Shown here one piece after another: positions 6,784-17,270 of a stretch of DNA of 64,000 bases. A program made the position numbers and the translations under genes. The stretch is from Frondihabitans sp. 762G35 (lineage in GTDB: Bacteria > Actinomycetota > Actinomycetes > Actinomycetales > Microbacteriaceae), in assembly GCF_002074055.1 (NCBI RefSeq), contig NZ_CP014619.1, forward strand, positions 2,108,001 to 2,172,000. Reading direction: 5' to 3'. The number at the start of each line of letters is the position of its first letter. Positions within the stretch are counted from its first letter, which is position 1. The notes beneath the pieces are model-generated. The model saw only the letters and a list, made by a program, of their open reading frames with translations. It did not search any database and had not been told where the DNA came from.

Positions 6784-8477
6784 CACCCGAACCCCCGCAG
6801 GGCCGCGAGCATCTCGGCGCTCGTCCCGATGCGCTCCGTGAGGATCGCCTCCCCGGCCGTACCGCGGTAGTCGTAGATGTCGTACGTGCCGCAGGCGACG
6901 ACGTCGCGCGGCGGACCGAGAGCGGCCACGGTTCCTCCCAGGTCGGCGTCGCGCGGCTCGTCGCGCGGCCTGATGAGATAGCCCACCCGCGCACCCCGGT
7001 AGGGGGCGAGGTTGACGAGCCAGGGATAGACGTCGAGGGTGTCGGTGATCTGCAGGAGGCGCACAGTGGGCCCCGCGTACGCCGCGAGCCCCCTGCCCGT
7101 CCAGAACTGGGTCGCTCCGGCGACGGCGACGTGCTCGTCGCGCACCCAGTCCGTCAGGCACGCGGCACCCGTGTCGCCGGAGCCGGCGCCGGTCGCCAGC
7201 AGACGGCCAGCGGCAGGCGTCGCGACGACGACGGCGGACACCACGGCGGCGAGCGCGACGACGGCCACCCCGCGTCGAGCGGTCACGTCCCGCGGCCGCG
7301 GCGTCGAGGCCACGAGGGCGACGAGCCCGAGGAGCGGTGCGACCACCAGCGGGATCGCGTAGCGGGTCGAGATGCTGCCCGTCCAGATCAGGGCGATCGG
7401 CAGGAGGACGATCGTCGCCGACACGGACGCGAAGACGAGGGCGGCGGCGTCCGTCCTCCCCCGCCTGACGGCGCGCACGGCGCCCATCACCGATGCCACC
7501 GCGAGAGCCAGGACGAGCAGGAGCTCGCCCACGCCGCGCGGCGTCGACACGAGGTCCCGGAGTGCTCCCCCGAAGAACGCGATGCTCGTCGCCTGACCGT
7601 CCCAGCGGAGGTACTCCTGCTGCCGGGCGATGATGAAGCTCGTGAGCGGCGCTCTGCCGAGGTAGCCGGCGACGGACCCGGCGACGAGGGCCGCGGCGGC
7701 GACGAGGGGCCCGAGCATCCTGCGGTCGCGCGCCCGCCGGAGCCGCACGAGCGTCGACGCCCCGAGGGCGAGGCCGAGCGGGGCCGTGGCCCAGAGGGCG
7801 AAGAGCGGATTCGACAGGGTGGCCAGCCCCGCCACCAGGGCGAGGCCGAGGACGGCCCACGGGAGCGATCCGCGGCGGGCCGGTCGGACGGCTCCGCGGG
7901 CCCGCGGCCAGGCTGCGACGTGGAGGGCCAGCGCGAGGGAGGCGACGAGCGCCATGACCGTGCCGGAGTAGTAGGTCGTGGTCAGAAAGAGCGTCGCGAG
8001 CTCGGCGGTGTTCCCGCCGGCGGTCGTCTCGAGGAGGCAGAGGAGGGTGAGGGCGGCGACACCGACGAGGGCCGCGACGACGGGGCGGGCGGGGCCCGGT
8101 CGGGCATCCTGCGTGCCGCTCGCGACGACCCGGGAGGCCACGGCGCGGAAGAGGCCGTAGAGGATCACCACGTTGAGCACGCCGTTGAGGAGGAGCGAGG
8201 ACGCGACCGTGGTCGTGACAGCGGCGGACAGCAGGTAGAGGGGCAGCTCGGGGAAGACGAACAGCACGGGCGAGAGACCCCACTCGAACGGCTCGCCCCG
8301 CTCGAATGACGCTCGCATCAGCGGCAGCAGGACGGAGTCGGCGTCGCTGAGGAGGAGGGGCCGCTTCGCCGTGCCGAGCGCGTGCGCCAGGGCGATCAGG
8401 GCGAAGGCCGCGCTGAGCAGGACGCCGAGCGCCTCCCAGCCGAGGCGCACCAGGCGGGTGGGTCGACGCGAGGGCAC
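6780..8477 (-). CDS. Polytopic membrane protein, unknown function (possible GT-C type)
   Basis: This 565-aa protein has roughly ten or more hydrophobic helices, starting at about residue 13, and a C-terminal soluble part of about 100 residues ending in [15 protein letters not shown]. The topology resembles GT-C glycosyltransferases that use polyprenyl-phosphate sugars, but I see no diagnostic acidic motif in the first loop, so this is only a possibility. The start is a GTG at 8477, divergent from accD with only 51 bp between them. Its stop overlaps birA by 4 bp. Confidence 0.6.
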
Positions 8478-8515
8478 GGTCGGACACTAATGCATCGACG
8501 CCGGGAGGCCGTTAG

Positions 8516-8528
8516 TAGAGTTGACGCC
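8516..8528 (+). promoter_or_regulatory. -10 box TAGAGT for leaderless accD
   Basis: TAGAGT at 8516-8521 ends 7 nt before the GTG at 8529. No Shine-Dalgarno sequence lies between them, so the message is probably leaderless. Confidence 0.55.
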
Positions 8529-10136
8529 GTGACTGACGACCTCCCCTCGAACGCCAAGCCCGATCTCCACACGACGGCGGGCAAGCTCGCCGATCTGAAG
8601 GAGCGCTATCACGAGGCCGTGACCGCGGCCGGTGAGGCGTCCATCGCGAAGCAGCACGCCAAGGGCAAGAAGACGGCCCGCGAGCGCATCGACCAGCTCC
8701 TCGACGCCGGCTCGTTCGTCGAGATCGACGAGTTCGTGAGGCACCGCACCCACGCGTTCGGCATGGAGGACAAGCGGCCGTACGGCGACTCCGTCGTCAC
8801 CGGCACGGGAACGATCGGGGGCCGCCAGGTCGCCGTCTACTCGCAGGACTTCACGACCTTCGGCGGATCGCTCGGCGAGGTCGCCGGCGAGAAGATCGTC
8901 AAGGTGATGGAGCTCGCGCTCCGCACCGGCGTGCCGATCATCGGCCTGCTCGACTCCGGCGGGGCGCGCATCCAGGAGGGCGTGGTCGCGCTCGGAAAGT
9001 ACGGCGAGATCTTCCGGCTGAACACGCGCTCGTCGGGCGTCATCCCGCAGATCTCCATCATCATGGGGCCGGCGGCCGGAGGCGCGGTGTACTCCCCCGC
9101 CCTCACCGACTTCGTCGTCATGGTCGACAAGACGAGCCAGATGTTCGTCACGGGCCCCGACGTCATCAAGACCGTCACCGGCGAGGACGTCGGCTTCGAG
9201 GAGCTCGGCGGCGCGCTCACCCACAACAAGATCTCCGGCGTCTCGCACTACCTCGCCGAGAACGAGGACGACGCCCTCGACTACGTCGCGACCCTCGTCG
9301 GCTTCCTGCCCGACAACAACCTCGCCGATCCGCCCGTCTTCGAGGCGGCTCCCGAGATGGAGACCACCGACGCCGACCGTCAGCTCGACACGCTGATTCC
9401 CGACTCACCCAACCAGCCCTACGACATGCTCACCGTGATCGAGCACATCGTCGACGACGGCGACTTCCTCGAGGTGCAGCCGCTCTTCGCGCCGAACATC
9501 GTGATCGGCTTCGGCCGCGTCGAGGGACGGACGGTCGGCATCATCGCCAACCAGCCGTCCGTCATGGCCGGGACCCTCAACATCGACGCCGGCGAGAAGG
9601 CGGCGCGCTTCGTTCGGTTCTGCGACGCGTTCTCCATCCCGATCCTGACGCTCGTCGACACCCCCGGATTCCTCCCCGGAACCGACCAGGAGTGGACCGG
9701 CATCATCCGCCGCGGCGCCAAGCTCCTCTACGCCTACGCCGAGGCCACCGTCCCGCTCGTCACGGTCATCACCCGCAAGGCCTACGGCGGGGCCTACATC
9801 GTCATGGGCTCCAAGCAGCTCGGCGCCGACATCAACCTCGCCTGGCCCACGGCCGAGATCGCCGTCATGGGCGGCCAGGGCGCCGTCAACATCCTGTACC
9901 GCAGCGAGATCAAGCGGGCGACGGAGGCCGGCGAGGACGTCGCGGGCGTGCGCACGCGCCTCGCCAACGAGTACACCTACAACGTGGCGTCGCCCTTCCT
10001 CGCGGCCGAGCGCGGCGAGCTCGACGGCATCGTCGAGCCGGCCGCGACCCGCGTCGCCGTCATCAAGGCGCTCCGCGCGCTCCGCACCAAGCGGGCCTCG
10101 CTGCCGAGCAAGAAGCACGGGAACATCCCCCTGTGA
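8529..10136 (+). CDS. accD: Acyl-CoA (propionyl/acetyl-CoA) carboxylase beta subunit
   Basis: This is the carboxyltransferase subunit that passes CO2 from carboxybiotin to acetyl- or propionyl-CoA for fatty acid synthesis. The N-terminal half has the [18 protein letters not shown] opening and the [14 protein letters not shown] and [13 protein letters not shown] motifs. The C-terminal half has [25 protein letters not shown] and [12 protein letters not shown]. The GTG start is fixed by the TAGAGT box 7 nt upstream; the open frame beginning at 8382 lacks family residues before this point. The 535-aa length is normal. Its stop overlaps the epsilon-subunit start (GTGA). The acetyl versus propionyl preference cannot be read here. 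Confidence 0.95.
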
Positions 10137-10420
10137 GCGGCCGGCACGCCCTGCAGGAGCCTCGGGGAGACGAGCCTCACGAGGCCGCCTCCCCCGATCC
10201 CGCCGTCCCGGGCGCCTCCATCCGCGTGCTCGCGGGCTCGCCGACGCCCGAGGAGCTCGCCGCCGTGACGGCGGTCCTCGCTGCTCTGGAGGCCGAGGAG
10301 TCGGCCGCGGCCGCGCGGCGCACCGTCCCTCGCGGGCAGTCCGGCTGGCAGGAGAGCCAGCGGAGCCTCCGGGTGCCTCTGCACCCCGGTCCGGGCCGCT
10401 GGAGCCGCTCCGCCGGGTAG
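10133..10420 (+). CDS. accE: Acyl-CoA carboxylase epsilon subunit
   Basis: This 95-aa gene is easily missed. It starts with GTG in a 4-bp overlap with the accD stop. The conserved core [20 protein letters not shown] and the C-terminal tryptophans ([11 protein letters not shown] and [11 protein letters not shown]) are the hallmarks of the actinobacterial epsilon subunit. That subunit bridges and stabilises the alpha and beta carboxylase subunits. The N-terminal 30 residues are disordered and acidic. In many actinobacteria accD, accE, maf and accA are close together; here maf and accA lie about 8 kb further on. Confidence 0.85.
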
Positions 10421-10553
10421 AAACGGCGAACTTTGTCCCCCGTCCGGTCGGCGTCGGCCGGTCGAGCCTCGGCGTTTCCCCCTGTACGGGGGGCACGGGG
10501 CTCCTGCTATCGGGGTGGATGTCGCCCCGGTGTCCCCCAAAATGACGACTATC

Positions 10554-10587
10554 TTGACAGGTAAGGGACCACCATTATTACTAGTGC
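10554..10587 (+). promoter_or_regulatory. Promoter of the candidate small RNA
   Basis: A perfect TTGACA lies at 10554-10559. A TATTAC at 10576-10581 follows after 16 nt; TACTAG at 10579-10584 would give 19 nt. This is the most AT-rich spot in the surrounding 2 kb and does not precede any open reading frame on the plus strand. Confidence 0.55.
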
Positions 10588-10740
10588 TAGGTGTCTCTCT
10601 CAGAGTTACACCACCGAACAGGGTCTTCTAGGGTAAGCGGGCCATCGACTGTTCGGGGGCGAGTCAGGGCGACATTCGGGTTGTCGCCCTGACTCGGGGC
10701 TTGCGAAGGGCCGGACGGGTGTCCGGCCCTTCTGCGTTTC
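10588..10740 (+). ncRNA. Candidate structured small RNA with three hairpins
   Basis: The intergenic stretch between two convergent genes holds a promoter followed by three perfect stems. Stem 1 pairs CCGAACAG (10614-10621) with CTGTTCGG (10649-10656). Stem 2 pairs 15 bases at 10660-10674 with 10682-10696 around a 7-nt loop (TTCGGGT). Stem 3 is a terminator hairpin at 10705-10732. The 5' end also has GGTGT and ACACC around 10590-10612, which could pair. The strand is set by the TTGACA promoter and the T-containing tail after stem 3. It does not look like tmRNA, 6S, SRP RNA or 6C RNA as I know them. The exact ends are inferred. Confidence 0.6.
10705..10740 (+). terminator. Intrinsic terminator of the small RNA
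   Basis: A 12-bp perfect stem (10705-10716 with 10721-10732) with a GGGT loop is followed by TGCGTTTC. The T-rich tail is on the plus strand only. Confidence 0.7.
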
Positions 10741-10814
10741 CCGGGGGCGGTGTTCCCCCGGGGCGGTGCTTCCCGGGCCGGTGTTCCCCGGCGGGGTGAG
10801 CCGCCCCCGGCGAG

Positions 10815-10863
10815 ACTCCACGACCCGCCGCTCACCTTCGTGAAACGCCGCACATCGTGGAGT
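10815..10863 (-). repeat. Fourth, inverted copy of the ACTCCACGA/TCGTGGAGT palindromic element
   Basis: The arms ACTCCACGA (10815-10823) and TCGTGGAGT (10855-10863) match those of the array at 692-924. Read on the minus strand, the interior keeps GGTGAGCGG, and the flank TCTCGCCGGGGGC resembles the array spacers. It lies 17 bp after the stop of the minus-strand reductase gene. Confidence 0.8.
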
Positions 10864-10880
10864 CATGGCCCCGCGTTCCC

Positions 10881-11990
10881 CTACGGGATCAGGCGCGCCG
10901 CCCGGTACCGGTCGAACAGGTCGGCGAAGGCCCGCTCGGTCCGGCGGAACGACAGGAAACCCGCCTCGCGGCTCTTGCCCATGTCGGTGACGACCTCCAT
11001 CGCGCGACCGAGATCGGCGTCGGTGTGCCACCACGACGCGAGCCGCGACAGGTCCGACTCCGCGAGGCCGTGCTTCGCCGCGATGCCGGGCCACGCCGCC
11101 TCGTGCTCGGCCATCTGCTGCTCGAGGGGTCGCGCAGATCCCTCGAAGCCGACCACCCTCGCGGGATCGACCCCGAGACGCTCGGCGAGCCGCGGCCACA
11201 TCCAGCGCCAGCGGAAGACGTCGCCGTTGACGATGTTGAACGCCTCGTCCCGACCGGCGGGTTCCGTGGCCGCCCACACCATCTGCTCGGCGAGGACGCC
11301 GGCGTCGGTCATGTCGGTGAGGCCGTTCCACTGCGCCTCGCTGCCGGGGAAGACGAAGTCGAGGTCGAGCTCCTTGGCGATCGTCGCCTGCACCGCGAGC
11401 GTGAGGCCCATGTTCATCGCGTTCCCGACGGCATAGCCGATGACCGTGTGCGACCGGTGCACGGACCAGGTGAATCCCTGACGGGCCGCCGCCGCGAAGA
11501 GCTCGTCCTCCTGGGCGTAGTAGAAGTTCGGGGTGTCGAGCCGGGGCTCCTCCTCGTGGAACGGCGTGTCGGGCATCTCGCCCGCCGCGTACGCCTCGAA
11601 CGGCCCGAGGTAGTGCTTGAGGCCCGTCACGAGGGCGACGTGCTCGAGCGGAGCGTGGGCCAGGGCGGCCAGGAGGTCGCGGACCATGCCGCCGTTGACG
11701 GCGATGTTCTCCGCCTCCGTCTCCTGCCGCTGCCACGCCGTGAAGAAGACGTGGGTCGGCCTCTCGGGCGCGAGGGCGTCGCGGAGGCTCTCCGGGTCGC
11801 GGAGGTCGGCGGCGATCCCGCGGACGCCCGGCGCGGATGCGGCGCTCCGGGAGAGGGCGAGGACGGTCCACCCCTCCCCCACCAGCTGCTCGACGAGGGC
11901 GGATCCGGTGATGCCGGAGGCGCCGACGACGAGAGCCGTGCGGTCGCCGCGGGTGGCGCGGGAGTGGTCTGTCTGCGTGTCGTGGGGCAT
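10881..11990 (-). CDS. NAD(P)-dependent reductase of the PRISE (progesterone 5-beta-reductase/iridoid synthase-like) SDR family
   Basis: The 369-aa protein is an atypical short-chain dehydrogenase. Its cofactor motif is ALVVGASGITGSALVEQL. The family-specific VTGLKHYLGPFEAY carries the active-site lysine, and NFYYAQEDEL supplies the tyrosine. Plant relatives reduce enones or cyclise iridoids; bacterial members reduce activated C=C bonds, but their natural substrates are mostly unknown. The ATG at 11990 begins a short polar leader before the Rossmann fold. A strong hairpin separates it from the alkaline phosphatase gene upstream, so it is probably a single transcription unit. Confidence 0.8.
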   Translation of the reverse strand: MPHDTQTDHSRATRGDRTALVVGASGITGSALVEQLVGEGWTVLALSRSAASAPGVRGIAADLRDPESLRDALAPERPTHVFFTAWQRQETEAENIAVNGGMVRDLLAALAHAPLEHVALVTGLKHYLGPFEAYAAGEMPDTPFHEEEPRLDTPNFYYAQEDELFAAAARQGFTWSVHRSHTVIGYAVGNAMNMGLTLAVQATIAKELDLDFVFPGSEAQWNGLTDMTDAGVLAEQMVWAATEPAGRDEAFNIVNGDVFRWRWMWPRLAERLGVDPARVVGFEGSARPLEQQMAEHEAAWPGIAAKHGLAESDLSRLASWWHTDADLGRAMEVVTDMGKSREAGFLSFRRTERAFADLFDRYRAARLIP

Positions 11991-12043
11991 GGTGACCCCA
12001 ACCCGCCGGCTCCGTCGATATTCCGTCGAGGCCCGCAGGATCA

Positions 12044-12081
12044 GGACGGCCCCCTCCCACGAGGTGGGGAGGGGGCCGTCC
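12044..12081 (-). terminator. Hairpin after the alkaline phosphatase gene
   Basis: A perfect 15-bp stem joins 12044-12058 and 12067-12081 with an 8-nt loop. It begins 13 bp after the phosphatase stop. It lacks a clear U-tract on the minus strand, so termination is likely but not certain. Confidence 0.6.
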
Positions 12082-12094
12082 GTCGGGCCGACGT

Positions 12095-13798
12095 CTACTT
12101 CGTGACGCGCAGCTTCACGACCGCGTCGGTCCCGCTCTGGACACCGTGCAGCGTCACGGCGACGTCACCCGTCCGCGCGGGAGCCGTGTAGCGGAGCGTG
12201 ACGGTCCCGTCGATGACGTCGACCGTGCCGAGATCCTCGGATCCTGCCGTCACCCGGACCTGGCGGTCGCCGCCGAAGCGCGTCCCGGTCAGGGTGATCT
12301 TCTCGGACGGACGCGGTCGGACGTCGTTCGCCGTGGCCCTGGCCGACGCGCTGAAGCGATCGGTGTCGCGATCGAGTCGGAGCGAGCGGGTCATGGTGAA
12401 GAAGGTGTCCGTCTGGTCGGTCAGTCCGACGACGTTGGCCGCTCCGGGTCCGTAGGCGGCGATCCGGACCTGCGTCCCCGTGTGCTGCTGCGACCCACCC
12501 GCGGCGGCCGTGCCGTAGGCCACCTTCATGACGGAGCCGTCGGCCGTGAGGAGCGCTGTGCTCAGGGTCGCCGGCGGGGTGTTGTCGACGATCTGGCTGG
12601 AGTGGGCGTGATCGGCCGTGGCGATCACGAGGGTGTTGCCGTCCTTCTTCGCGAAGGCGAGGGCCGCCTGGACGGCCTCGTCGAAGTCGAGCGTCTCGCC
12701 GATCTGACCGCAGGCGTTCGCGGCGTGGTCCTGCTTGTCGATCGACGCGCCCTCGACCTGGAGGAAGAAGCCCTTGCCGTTCTTCGGCTTGTCGAGCAGC
12801 GAGATCGCCTTCGTCGTGAGGGCCGGCAGGCTGAGGTCGCTGCCGAGGCGGGCGGGGTTCGGCGTGCAGGTGACCGGCGCGGCGTTGGCTCCGCCGACGG
12901 TCGCCGGAGTCGCGGCGAACCGGGTCGGGAAGTTGCCGGGCGTGAAGAGGCCCAGCAGGGGCTTCTTCTGGTCGGCGGTCTTCACCGCGGCCAGGGCCGC
13001 GCCGTCCTGGACGACCTGGTAGCCGCGCTCGGACGCCTGGTCGAAGAGCGTGCGTCCGGCGTAGGCGCCGGCCTTCGCGGTCTGCAGGAAGCTGGTCTGG
13101 CCGCCACCCAGGGTGACGTCGGGACGCGTTCCGATCAGCTGCTCGCTGATCGAGCCGAGGCCGCCGGCAGTGAGGGCATCGCTGCCGCAGACGGCGGTGT
13201 CCGGGCCGTAGCAGCCGCGGTCGGCGACGTGCGCGACCTGGACGGCGGGAGTCGCATCCTGGATCTCCGCGGTGCTCACGTCACCGGTCCGCAGGCCGTT
13301 CGCCTTCGCGATCTCGGTGAGGGTCTTCTGCGGGGTGCCGTCGATGTCGACCGAGATCGCGCCGTCGTAGGTCTTCGTGCCCGTGGTCCAAGCGCTGCCG
13401 GAGGCGGCCGAGTCGGTCACGTAGTCGGGCTTGCCCTTCGTGGGGCCGTCCTTCGCGAGCGAGTAGGTGGTGTACGAGCCGGTGAGCGGAAGGGCGTCGA
13501 GCCCCGGGAGGCGGCCGGCGGCACCGTAGGCGTAGTTGCGGGCGATGGTGATCTCGGAGTCGCCCATCCCGTCGCCGAGCAGGAAGATGACGTTCTTCGC
13601 CTTCGAGCCGTCAATCGCGGCGCGCACGTCGGACGTCTGGTCGCCCGACAGCCGGGTCGCCCCTCCGTTCTGCGAGAGCGCGAGGCCGGCACCGGCGACG
13701 GCGGCGCTCGGGAGGAGGACGGCCGCGGCGACGACGACGACGCCCAGGCCGAGGGCGCGCTTGCGCGCGGCAGGACGGTTCACAACAGGATTCTTCAC
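12095..13798 (-). CDS. phoA: Secreted alkaline phosphatase with C-terminal beta domain
   Basis: PhoA-type enzymes release phosphate from organic monoesters outside the membrane. An N-terminal signal segment ([20 protein letters not shown]) precedes the catalytic domain. Metal and nucleophile motifs are visible: [20 protein letters not shown], then [11 protein letters not shown] with the catalytic serine, then [22 protein letters not shown] and QQHTGTQV. Residues after about 480 form an extra beta-rich region not needed for catalysis. The GTG at 13798 has GGAG 9 nt upstream. A pst gene at the far end of the window fits general phosphate scavenging but is not linked to it. Confidence 0.92.
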
Positions 13799-13923: not shown

Positions 13924-14184
13924 CTAGGCCTCGGGCAGCAGGTCGTCGGGCACGACGAGGTTGCCGGTCAGCTCCAGCGGGAACTGATCGCTCGAGAGGA
14001 TCCCGGAGACGATCGCGAGACCGATGAGCGCCGGCAGCGTCGGCGTGCGGAGCATCTGCTGGAGACGTCCGACGTGGTACGCGACGGTGGCCGGGCTGAT
14101 CGAGAGCCTCTCGGCCACGGCCCGGTAGGTGTTCCCGCGGCCGATCCCCTCGAGGATCTCGGCCTGACGCCGGGTGAGGTTCAT
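13924..14184 (-). CDS. Stand-alone LuxR-type HTH protein (86 aa)
   Basis: This short gene starts with ATG in an ATGA overlap with the preceding membrane-protein gene. The first 50 residues are a GerE/LuxR helix-turn-helix: LTRRQAEILEGIGRGNTYRAVAERL followed by SISPATVAYHVGRL. There is no receiver domain. After the HTH comes a hydrophobic stretch (PALIGLAIVSGIL) and an acidic tail. As the last gene of a four-gene operon headed by a response regulator and kinase, it may be the DNA-binding output partner of the kinase-like protein encoded just before it. That pairing is inferred from gene order only. Confidence 0.75.
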   Translation of the reverse strand: MNLTRRQAEILEGIGRGNTYRAVAERLSISPATVAYHVGRLQQMLRTPTLPALIGLAIVSGILSSDQFPLELTGNLVVPDDLLPEA

Positions 14185-15296
14185 TCGTCGTCGTCGTCGA
14201 ACGGCACGGGCACGAATCCGGCGACGCGCGGGATCTGCAACCAGAGGCTGACCTCGTCCTCCCCGTCGTCGTCGTCCTCGTCGTCCTCGACGTCCACGTC
14301 GGAGCCGCTGGTGCCGCTCCCGAGGGCGCTCGACTGGAGGTCCTCCGAGCTGAGCCCGACCACTGTGACGGCGTAGTCGCCGCCGGGCGCCACGGTCCTG
14401 ATGATGAGGCGGTCGGCCGAGGCGTCGCGGATCGCGTCGGCGAGCGCCCGGTGCACCCGGTCGAGCTCGACGTCGTCGAGGTCGTCGATCCCGCCCTCGT
14501 CGAGGAGGCTGACGACGGTGCCGCGCCGTCGCGCCGCCATGACCTCGCGGCGGACGTCGTCGCTGAGCAGGCGCCGCCCGCGGATCTCGTCGCGGATGGC
14601 CCCCTCGAGGTTCAGGCACTCCTGACGCTCCTCGGCCGAGAGGTCGCCGCCGGTCGCGACGATGCGCTGGAGCATCGGCCTCGCGGTGCGCCCGGTCTGC
14701 AGGAGCCGGTACTGCCGCTCGTTGACGTGGGCCTCCTGGGCCGCCTGCCAGTCGGCCGCCTCCTGCTCGGCCCGGATGAACTCGCGGGTGTCCCGGCTCG
14801 CCCTGGCCAGCGTGGCCTGCAGGGCGTGCGAGATGGCGACCCAGCTGACGCTCCCCAGCACGCCGAGGTTCGCCAGCTCGGCGAAGTTGCCGCTCCAGAT
14901 GACGGAGTGGACCACCAGGAACCCGACCCCGATCCAGGCGAAGCCCTGGCGGCGCCGGGTCGAGACGATCACCATGAGCGTCCCGACCGCGGCCACGTAC
15001 CAGGTCGCGTAGCCGTTGCCGCCCTCGCGGTGCGGGTCGAGCTGCGAGGCGACGGCGAGGGGCAGGATGATCGCCACGGCGAGGGCCACGGAGGCGAGCC
15101 ACACCGGCAGCAGGAGGTTCTTCGTCTTCGGCGGCCACAGCACGGCGGCCGTCGCCGCGGCGTACAGCACCATCGACACGACGACGGGGCCCGGATGCGC
15201 GGGGATGTCGATCGACGCGGCTGCCAGGAGCAGGTGGTAGAGCGAGAAGAGCGCGGCGAGCCCGACGGGCAGCCAGCGGGGCAGTCTGACGTTCAC
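14181..15296 (-). CDS. Membrane protein with kinase-like cytoplasmic part, unknown function
   Basis: The 371-aa protein has about six N-terminal membrane helices (residues 8-165), an alpha-helical linker (EFIRAEQEAADWQAAQEAHVNERQY) and a C-terminal soluble domain. The segment LDRVHRALADAIRDASADRLIIRTV looks like a degenerate HATPase N-box region, but I see no clear G-box or phospho-acceptor histidine. A very acidic linker (DVDVEDDEDDDDGEDE) lies near the end. The GTG at 15296 overlaps the upstream kinase stop (GTGA). It may be a divergent sensor paired with the small HTH protein encoded after it. No named family is recognised with confidence. Confidence 0.6.
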   Translation of the reverse strand: MNVRLPRWLPVGLAALFSLYHLLLAAASIDIPAHPGPVVVSMVLYAAATAAVLWPPKTKNLLLPVWLASVALAVAIILPLAVASQLDPHREGGNGYATWYVAAVGTLMVIVSTRRRQGFAWIGVGFLVVHSVIWSGNFAELANLGVLGSVSWVAISHALQATLARASRDTREFIRAEQEAADWQAAQEAHVNERQYRLLQTGRTARPMLQRIVATGGDLSAEERQECLNLEGAIRDEIRGRRLLSDDVRREVMAARRRGTVVSLLDEGGIDDLDDVELDRVHRALADAIRDASADRLIIRTVAPGGDYAVTVVGLSSEDLQSSALGSGTSGSDVDVEDDEDDDDGEDEVSLWLQIPRVAGFVPVPFDDDDE

Positions 15297-16558
15297 GCGA
15301 CGTCCTCCGAGATCGATGTGGCCACGGCGGGCTCGGCCGGGGTACGGCGCGGCCAGGTGAGGCTGATGACGGTGCCGGAGCCCATCTTGGTGTGGATGAC
15401 GGCCTCGCCCCCGGCGTTGGAGAGCCGTTCGGTGATGGAGACGCGGACGCCGAGCCGCTCGCCGGGGACGGACGACGGGTTGAACCCCGGACCCGTGTCG
15501 CCGACGTCGACGGCGACGCCCTCCGCGGCCCAGTTGAGGCTGACCCACCGGGACACCTCGGGCCCGCCCGCGTGCTGCACGCTGTTGACGATCGCCTGCA
15601 CGGCGGCCGAGTAGAGAGCCTCCGCGGCGGGCGCGGGGATGACGTGACCGTCGAGACCCTTGGCGCGCACCTCGACCTCGGCTCCGAGGTTGTCGATGAA
15701 GACGCCGATGCGCTCCCGCATCGACTCCAGGCTCGTCGACGACTCGTCGAACGGGGTGGCGCTGGCGGCGCTCGTCAGGTGCGCCATGGCGTTGCGGGCC
15801 ATGGTCGTCGCCAGGGCCTTCTCCTCGGGGCTGAACGCCCGGGCGGCCGAGAGGAAGGTCGTGAGGACGCTGTCGTGCACGATGGCGTCGACCTGCACCC
15901 GCTCGACCTCCGTCGCGTGCTCGCGGATGGCTCCCGAGTAGCGGGCCACGGCCGTGCCCTGCGCCTGGTCGACCGAGGTCGAGGCCTGGCGCAGCAGGAT
16001 GATGAGGATGAGGACGGCACCGCCGAGGATGACCGAGTACGAGCCGTCGAGGGCCGCTCGGAGGGGTGATGCCCCGCCGCCGGACGGCGTGAGGCGGATC
16101 AGCCCGTAGACGAGCGGCGCGATCAGCAGGTAGCCGGTCGCCACCCAGCGCGAGAAGGCGATGGCCGCGGCCGAGGTCGCGACGGTGACCAGGTACCAGA
16201 GCCAGGGGACCTGCGGTTGGACGACCGCGGGATCCTGCACGGCGAGGGGCCAGGTGATGAGCGCGACGAGGAACGAGATCGCGAAGAAGGCCGCCGTGAT
16301 CTCGACGCCGCGCATGACGACGCCCGTGGCGCAGGTGGCCAGGATGCCGCCGAAGATGGCGAGCGAGATGATCCACGCCCACACGGGCTGCATGCTCGCC
16401 TGCTGACCGAGGGCGAACGGCACGGCCTGGAGTCCGAAGACGAGACCGAGCGCGGCGAGACCACGACCGAAGACCTGGTCGAGCAGCGGCCCGCTGATCG
16501 GGTTCCGCGTCGACCGCTGTCGGAGTTCGGGTACGGGGGGGACCCCGTCAGCGGCCAT
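15293..16558 (-). CDS. Sensor histidine kinase
   Basis: The 421-aa protein has N-terminal membrane helices (about residues 33-190) and then a NarL-type kinase module. The phospho-acceptor region is VDAIVHDSVLTTFLSAAR (HD motif), the ATP-binding N-box is AVQAIVNSVQHAGG, and the G1 box is DVGDTGPGFN. There is no obvious extracytoplasmic sensor domain, so the stimulus may be sensed in or near the membrane. The first codons overlap the upstream response regulator gene by 11 bp, which makes a cognate pair very likely. Confidence 0.88.
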   Translation of the reverse strand: MAADGVPPVPELRQRSTRNPISGPLLDQVFGRGLAALGLVFGLQAVPFALGQQASMQPVWAWIISLAIFGGILATCATGVVMRGVEITAAFFAISFLVALITWPLAVQDPAVVQPQVPWLWYLVTVATSAAAIAFSRWVATGYLLIAPLVYGLIRLTPSGGGASPLRAALDGSYSVILGGAVLILIILLRQASTSVDQAQGTAVARYSGAIREHATEVERVQVDAIVHDSVLTTFLSAARAFSPEEKALATTMARNAMAHLTSAASATPFDESSTSLESMRERIGVFIDNLGAEVEVRAKGLDGHVIPAPAAEALYSAAVQAIVNSVQHAGGPEVSRWVSLNWAAEGVAVDVGDTGPGFNPSSVPGERLGVRVSITERLSNAGGEAVIHTKMGSGTVISLTWPRRTPAEPAVATSISEDVA

Positions 16559-17270
16559 CGCCGCCGTCCGCGTCCAGACCGGGCAGGATGCCGTCCTCCA
16601 CCGCGCGGCGCAGCAGGTCGACCTTCGTCGGCGCGGGGCGGCCGACCTCGACGTACTTCACGCGGATGCGGTCGAGGTACTCGCGAGCGGTCGAATAGCC
16701 GATGCCGAGCTGCTGGGCGGCGAGCTTGAGCGGGAGGCCGGAGGCGTAGAGGTGGAGGATCTCGCGCTCGCGCCTTCCGAGCTGCGCCTTGGCGAAGTCG
16801 CGGTCGGCGTCGATCGCGCTCGCCCACTCGAGGTTGTTGAGGACGTCGCCGCGGGCGACGGTCGCGACGGCGGCCATGACGGTCTTCGTCGCGGAGGACT
16901 TGGGGATGACGCCGGCGGCTCCCGCGGCGAGCGCCTCGCGGACCGAGGCGACCCGGTCGGCGATGGAGTGGACGAGCACGGCCGAGCCGGTCGCCTGGAC
17001 GCGCTTGACGTTCTCGGTGACCGTGGAGCCGTCGCCGAGGGAGAGGTCGAGGACGACGACGTCGACCTCGCGGCCGGCGAGGTTGTCGACGAACTCCTGC
17101 ACACCGGCGGCGGTGAGGATGACCTGGAAACCCTCGTTCTGGCAGGCGGCCTGGATGCCGAGCCGGACCGACTCGTGGTCGTCGACGATGGCCACCCGCA
17201 CGGGCTTCGCCACGGGGGCGACCCCTTCGTTGTCAGCAGCCTGGTCCGTCGTGGTATCTGACACGATCAT
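16548..17270 (-). CDS. Two-component response regulator, NarL/LuxR family
   Basis: The receiver domain opens with VRVAIVDDHESVRLG, keeps the phospho-acceptor aspartate in VDVVVLDLSLGDGS, and has the lysine in AGVIPKSS. The C-terminal LuxR HTH is REREILHLYASGLPLKLAAQQLGIGYSTAREYLDRI. It heads the operon with the kinase, the kinase-like membrane protein and the small HTH protein. The ATG at 17270 has GAAGGATG-type spacing from its ribosome site, and a TAGGAT box at 17327-17322 gives a plausible 45-nt leader. Confidence 0.9.
   Translation of the reverse strand: MIVSDTTTDQAADNEGVAPVAKPVRVAIVDDHESVRLGIQAACQNEGFQVILTAAGVQEFVDNLAGREVDVVVLDLSLGDGSTVTENVKRVQATGSAVLVHSIADRVASVREALAAGAAGVIPKSSATKTVMAAVATVARGDVLNNLEWASAIDADRDFAKAQLGRREREILHLYASGLPLKLAAQQLGIGYSTAREYLDRIRVKYVEVGRPAPTKVDLLRRAVEDGILPGLDADGGDGR

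Follow-up and report, generated by a model that had tools for sequence, protein, structure and literature searches.

The closest described counterparts of the RNA presented here are found among regulator-linked and actinobacterial small RNAs. The GacA-controlled RsmY, RsmZ and CsrB carry GGA motifs in repeated loops; the CiaR-controlled csRNAs, RsaE and other regulator-linked sRNAs are short, trans-encoded and equipped with an intrinsic terminator and a loop seed, with C-rich UCCC loops; and 6C RNA of actinobacteria (RF01066) has two prominent hairpins with C-rich loops.

The locus studied here lies in a 64,000-nucleotide stretch of Frondihabitans sp. 762G35 DNA, the whole of which we call the window. 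Its RNA resembles RsmY/RsmZ and CsrB in repeating an identical loop core and possibly in its link to a NarL/FixJ-type response regulator and a conserved upstream site, but it has only two such loops, these carry GGGU instead of several GGA motifs, and no Rfam model matches. It is like the CiaR-controlled csRNAs and RsaE as a short trans-encoded sRNA with an intrinsic terminator, a loop seed and, as we infer for this RNA, a regulator-dependent promoter; unlike them it is actinobacterial and its loops are G-rich. With 6C RNA it shares two prominent hairpin loops in an actinobacterial sRNA, but these read AGGGUA and UUCGGGU, and the 6C model of Rfam gives no match.

No Rfam 15 family reached its gathering threshold in the window or in eight of the loci, and with E values up to 10 only six sub-threshold cmscan matches were returned for positions 9600-11700. 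The top one, Scr3202 (RF02833), lies mainly over the terminator and scores 21 bits against a gathering threshold of 52 (E 4.5), so that the RNA is not a member of that family. ARAGORN found neither tmRNA nor tRNA in the window. The preliminary description, which had seen no likeness to tmRNA, 6S or 6C RNA and had proposed the cmscan search, is thus borne out. A literature search that covered few of the subscription journals returned nothing describing this RNA. From these comparisons the RNA family appears to be new, and of a familiar kind.

Fold, conservation and loops of the RNA

The covariance model places the RNA at 10586-10740 on the forward strand, with a predicted start at about 10588-10590. 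It is made up of four hairpins. SL1 (10590-10612) pairs GGTGT at 10590-10594 with ACACC at 10608-10612. The SL2 arm (10614-10656) has an outer 8-bp stem, CCGAACAG at 10614-10621 with CTGTTCGG at 10649-10656, and ends in the hexaloop AGGGUA (10630-10635) closed by CU/AG. SL3 (10660-10696) is a perfect 15-bp stem, CGAGTCAGGGCGACA at 10660-10674 with TGTCGCCCTGACTCG at 10682-10696, which presents the heptaloop UUCGGGU (TTCGGGT in the DNA, 10675-10681) on an A-U closing pair. The intrinsic terminator hairpin (10705-10739) consists of the 12-bp stem GAAGGGCCGGAC (10705-10716) and GTCCGGCCCTTC (10721-10732) around a GGGT loop, followed by the tail TGCGTTTC, in which the longest run of T is only three. 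Read directly, the sequence contains the TTGACA box and the 8-, 15- and 12-bp stems exactly where they had been reported. SL1 had been overlooked as a fourth stem, and the 8-bp stem turns out to be the outer form of the longer SL2 arm, the conserved part of which is the tip.

The predicted fold of 10588-10740 has a free energy of -87.8 kcal/mol (z -7.4; none of 200 shuffles was equally good). The opposite strand also folds well (z -9.7), as near-palindromes must. Folding alone therefore does not set the strand, which follows instead from the site upstream and from the conservation of the loops. A 6S- or Ms1-like RNA that binds RNA polymerase could likewise be compact, widespread in the family and served by its own promoter region; the separate short hairpins, in place of a long rod with a central bubble, and the absence of an Rfam 6S match leave this reading only a slim chance.

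Comparison across relatives, the check that the preliminary description had proposed, revealed compensatory double changes in the stems. Covariance models were built from 28 (R1) and 73 (R2) sequences. In alignment A4, which holds 73 chosen loci above the R1 score threshold with near-duplicates excluded, 95.8% of the cells in 48 pairs are paired (the outer SL2 arm included), and 41 of the 48 pairs show double changes, in 449 cells; none of 500 shuffles equalled either measure, and slid controls gave 32-49% pairing. A4 was fitted to R1 and its counts thus lean towards that structure. A MAFFT alignment fitted to no model (A1; 28 of 30 aligned sequences, L006 and L026 being excluded for insertions) nevertheless yielded 41 RNAalifold pairs, 15 of them with double changes. 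A third alignment with three antisense rows (A3) was kept out of the counts. Within A4, SL1 has 96-98% of its cells paired and double changes in all seven counted pairs, the terminator has double changes in 12 of 12 pairs, and the outer SL2 arm is the weakest helix (85.4% paired).

That the hairpins are chance inverted repeats without any RNA gene is next to impossible. The one result in favour, that a simple consensus scanner reported neither the TTGACA promoter nor the terminator on the forward strand, stands against the fold z-score, the conservation in genus and family and, decisively, the compensatory changes. The earlier remark that such stems are unlikely by chance was well founded and, judged by comparison of the copies, the hairpins are part of a genuine RNA gene. 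It is not a hidden coding gene either: as had been noted for the window, no open reading frame explains the structure, and none is conserved among the 73 copies. ATG is absent from 22 of them, the longest closed frame of a copy ranges from 0 to 35 codons (median 15), and the distance from the SL2 to the SL3 loop is spread over the three phases (57, 11 and 5 copies). These properties rule out a hidden peptide.

The loops are the best conserved parts. The SL2 tip is (A/C)GGGUA in most genera, on closing pairs that vary between CU/AG (most copies), GU/AC (g79) and, by eye, CC/GG (g85). It has been lost in several genera: L046 (G030) has the operon and the upstream site without the SL2 loop, and in L175 the loop reads GUGGUG. 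The SL3 tip AUUCGGGUU is nearly invariant. The SL3 stem varies while A-UUCGGGU-U persists, with the A-U closing pair in 73 of 73 copies; copies without the SL2 loop keep SL3, and [U/C]UCGGGU could still be recognised by eye in the most divergent ones.

This pattern brings to mind a protein sponge, in which the GGGU tips shared by SL2 and SL3 would bind and titrate a perhaps dimeric RNA-binding protein as CsrB does CsrA. Two hairpins sharing a GGGU loop core on varying stems, and conservation confined to loop and closing pair instead of a long seed, would suit such a role, as would the presence of the upstream site near genes for sigma factors and, in individual genomes, near glgE-like and acs-like ones (see below). 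Since the motif occurs only twice and its SL2 copy is lost in several genera, and since no CsrA is known in this group, we regard the sponge as possible but rather unlikely.

Complements of the tips were sought in the neighbourhood of 76 loci and none was conserved, which argues against a target in cis. Matches to the SL3-tip motif GNYATTCGGGTTRNC away from the RNA exceeded a reversed control, and we inspected nine such loci. Eight had stems of 1-5 pairs and were mostly coding-like; the idea that the SL3 tip is scattered through the genomes as a motif was thus rejected. Isolated hairpins with a AUUCGGGUU tip do occur away from accD, at L302:1490-1525 (13 pairs) and L276:1501-1537 (a longer stem with mismatches), both of them clear hairpins.

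Distribution in the Microbacteriaceae

A blastn search with positions 10540-10745 found the RNA in all seven genomes of the genus and in 180 of 299 genomes of the family, from 52 of its 85 genera. The family is the Microbacteriaceae: a pattern scan of named genomes matched 59 contigs, whose titles give either a Microbacteriaceae genus (Leifsonia, Herbiconiux, Salinibacterium, Cryobacterium and others) or an unclassified member of the Microbacteriaceae, Micrococcales or actinobacteria. R1 and R2 added divergent copies in genera with weak or no blastn matches, including g34, g16, g17, g53 and g85, the last of which scores weakly (29 to 32 bits) but lies at the expected position.

Under strict filters, with which weak matches are lost, 23 of 396 genomes matched in the order, 15 of them within the family, and ten of 394 in the class, nine within the family and one as a 30-bit partial match. 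Seven of the eight order matches outside the family owed their score to the terminator or a tRNA neighbourhood only, as judged from the alignments by eye. The searches of the order and class thus returned nothing convincing outside the Microbacteriaceae, and a single candidate, L047, resembles the RNA. It comes from another family of the order (G663), scores 42 bits with R1 and 38.8 with R2, and carries GACUAGGGU in a hairpin. It lies directly before a chemotaxis operon, a different context, and has no Rfam match.

Promoter region, inversions and the neighbouring operon

The preliminary description had placed a TTGACA promoter before the RNA. The box is there (10554-10559, -35-like), but among 72 copies TTGAC occurs near the -35 place in one, the window's own, and TTGACA as the promoter box of the family was therefore rejected. 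In its place relatives carry a conserved GTCCCCCnAAATGACGACT site upstream at a near-fixed distance. In the window this activator-like site reads GTCCCCCAAAATGACGACT (10532-10550, forward strand), and column counts show a -10 region, CATTATTAC at 10573-10581, conserved as CA(T/A)(T/A)ATT(G/A). The pattern GTCCCCCnAAATGACGAC, derived from the same alignments on which it was counted, was found with at most four mismatches upstream of 70 of 72 copies (one of the 73 does not have 110 upstream bases), and in 66 of the 70 its distance from model position 1 is 34-36 bp. Base shuffles reached four mismatches in 6 of 1440 cases and never fewer. The centre of the site would fall near -48. This arrangement resembles a promoter that depends on an activator, and in this genome a good -35 box would have been added to it. 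The window also has, on the forward strand, tandem half-sites, TGTCNCCC and TGTCCCCC, at 10520-10538 with 11-bp spacing; the tandem occurs once in the window with one mismatch, which is not above chance (shuffle mean 1.25). Of the 70 copies with the main site, 36 have a second TGTMCCCC further upstream.

The site is also found elsewhere. With at most one mismatch it occurs in 60 of 150 family genomes, where the reversed pattern gave one match. In the window's genome a copy with one mismatch precedes a SigB-like sigma gene (G000:C1:149295; L117) and a copy with two precedes a FliA-like gene next to flagellin (G000:C1:244143; L118), both genes being named by eye. With up to two mismatches the site precedes the fliA-like gene in six of the seven genomes of the genus (none in G004), and it does so in two g31 genomes too. 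Because it recurs before sigma-factor genes, the sequence behaves as the site of a regulator. As a family-wide feature of fliA it was rejected, since only 5 of 30 fliA loci carry it at up to one mismatch, all in genera g1 and g31; L258 has it with three mismatches on the other strand. In other genera (L164, L176, L180), inspection by eye showed single sites ahead of glgE-like, BLUF and acs-like genes, and some further copies fall within coding sequence. That the operon regulates itself by way of the site was rejected, as 30 response-regulator loci contained no copy with three or fewer mismatches (best four).

The locus runs from accD-accE through the RNA to the two-component operon. Upstream of the RNA lie, on the forward strand, an accD-like carboxyltransferase gene (8382-10136, an ORF start, the true one probably being further in) and a small gene that we take to encode an accE-like epsilon subunit (10133-10420; cluster 3, which occurs in 31 of 89 RNA loci). 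The operon is on the reverse strand and comprises a NarL/LuxR-type response regulator (16548-17270, with a GerE hit below the Pfam cut-off), a histidine kinase with a HATPase_c domain (15293-16558; the nearest NCBIfam model, MacS, is far below cut-off) and a membrane sensor-like protein (14181-15296; cluster 1; no Pfam hit in a relative). An 86-aa LuxR-type protein (13924-14184, reverse strand; HTH recognised by eye) begins in overlap with the stop of the sensor-like gene and looks like an extra DNA-binding partner. In the window, epimerase-like and alkaline-phosphatase genes (10881-13798, reverse strand) lie between RNA and operon. Among 89 RNA loci, some of which share a genome and many of which are cut short, the stretch covered beside the RNA includes an accD-like gene in 79 and the gene of the sensor-like protein in 67.

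The neighbourhood of accD-accE leads to the question of whether the RNA is the 3' end of their mRNA, a conserved terminator region that either yields a 3'UTR-derived sRNA by processing or serves only to protect the transcript. It lies beside accD-accE in the loci examined, including those where the two-component operon is absent, as this reading would have it. However, where accD was matched (91 loci, some of which share a genome) the RNA is on the accD strand in 88 and on the opposite strand in three (L003, L004, L215), and three more genomes, G073, G136 and G094, have it inverted. In these six genomes, which belong to four genera (g1, g16, g68, g7), the upstream site (0-4 mismatches) and the RNA have turned together, off the accD strand, between accD and the two-component operon. 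The inverted loci are L003, L004, L215, L309, L310 and L311, two of them from the window's own genus, and inversion of the promoter-RNA unit is a repeated event. Inversion of the whole unit means that it is independent of accD-accE transcription. Together with the conserved -10 region and upstream site, the inversions make the 3'-end reading extremely improbable and raise that of a separate regulatory RNA. On this comparative evidence, site and RNA are an autonomous gene. The proposal of a stand-alone structured small RNA between convergent genes is upheld by the compensatory changes, the promoter region and the inversions.

The RNA is usually found near the two-component operon. Among 150 genomes of the family, 111 have a match to the response regulator; in 103 of these, counted among the matches listed, the identity is at least 62%. 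In the 77 genomes for which both coordinates are among the matches listed, RNA and regulator are at most 20 kb apart in 76 (median 2.4 kb; 73 pairs convergent and the three in G073, G094 and G136 inverted); G027 has them on different contigs. In 20 further regions beside a regulator the covariance model detected the RNA in 14 of 16 with an orthologue at 62% identity or more and in none of four with a regulator of 45-51% identity. Together with the matches of another model search, these bring to 19 the genomes beyond the 77 in which the RNA lies beside the operon. The model search gave no RNA match in the short stretches from G049 and G055, which have an orthologous regulator.

Of 29 genomes without an orthologue of the regulator, five gave a match; in the same model search four of six genomes with the orthologue scored. 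One of the five matches (G069) is an isolated SL3-like hairpin. In the other four, G103, G023, G051 (34 bits) and G043 (31 bits), the RNA copy follows accD, so the RNA is not uniformly absent where the system is absent (4 of 29 keep it). The two-component system is hence not essential to the RNA, and the shared position may in part be inherited synteny. By eye, the four operon-less copies have no GTCCCCC site in their 110 upstream bases and no recognisable GGGUA tip in SL2, while the SL3 tip remains. SL3 is thus the core of the RNA, and the site and the SL2 tip go largely with the operon. From co-occurrence and synteny, the RNA is probably controlled by the neighbouring two-component system.

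Probable function and its meaning

Comparison establishes that the RNA has a conserved promoter region, folds into four hairpins and ends in an intrinsic terminator, that it is syntenic with accD-accE and the two-component genes, and that site and RNA are inverted as one unit. An own promoter region, an intrinsic terminator, the lack of a conserved ORF and inversion as one unit are what is found in trans-encoded sRNAs. The reading we favour, with somewhat more confidence than doubt, is that this is the gene of a trans-acting small regulatory RNA of about 150 nt, the representative of a new RNA family of the Microbacteriaceae. The RNA would be switched on when the NarL-type response regulator encoded nearby, or a partner from the same pathway, binds the upstream GTCCCCCnAAATGACGACT site, as suggested by the lack of a -35 box in relatives. 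The exposed SL3 tip would be the working part, with that of SL2 assisting in most genera, and the GGGU of each tip would either pair with ACCC-containing sites in mRNAs or hold an RNA-binding protein. Short conserved tips fit both, and we lean slightly towards pairing with mRNA over protein capture.

It is conceivable, although we think it improbable, that the locus forms a Gac/Rsm-like switch without CsrA, in which a sensor-made RNA captures a putative RNA-binding protein with its GGGU tips while the site tunes the fliA and SigB-like genes. If this were true, one and the same regulator site would tune motility and stress sigma factors.

The trans-acting RNA that we favour is of interest beyond this genome. 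High-GC actinobacteria are not known to have the familiar RNA chaperones. Their regulatory RNAs are poorly charted, and this one is present in at least 180 of 299 genomes of a large family that is soil- and plant-associated. Its nearly invariant exposed tip, the regulator site and the adjoining signalling operon together may provide a handle on the partners of the RNA and on the signal pathway to which it would belong.
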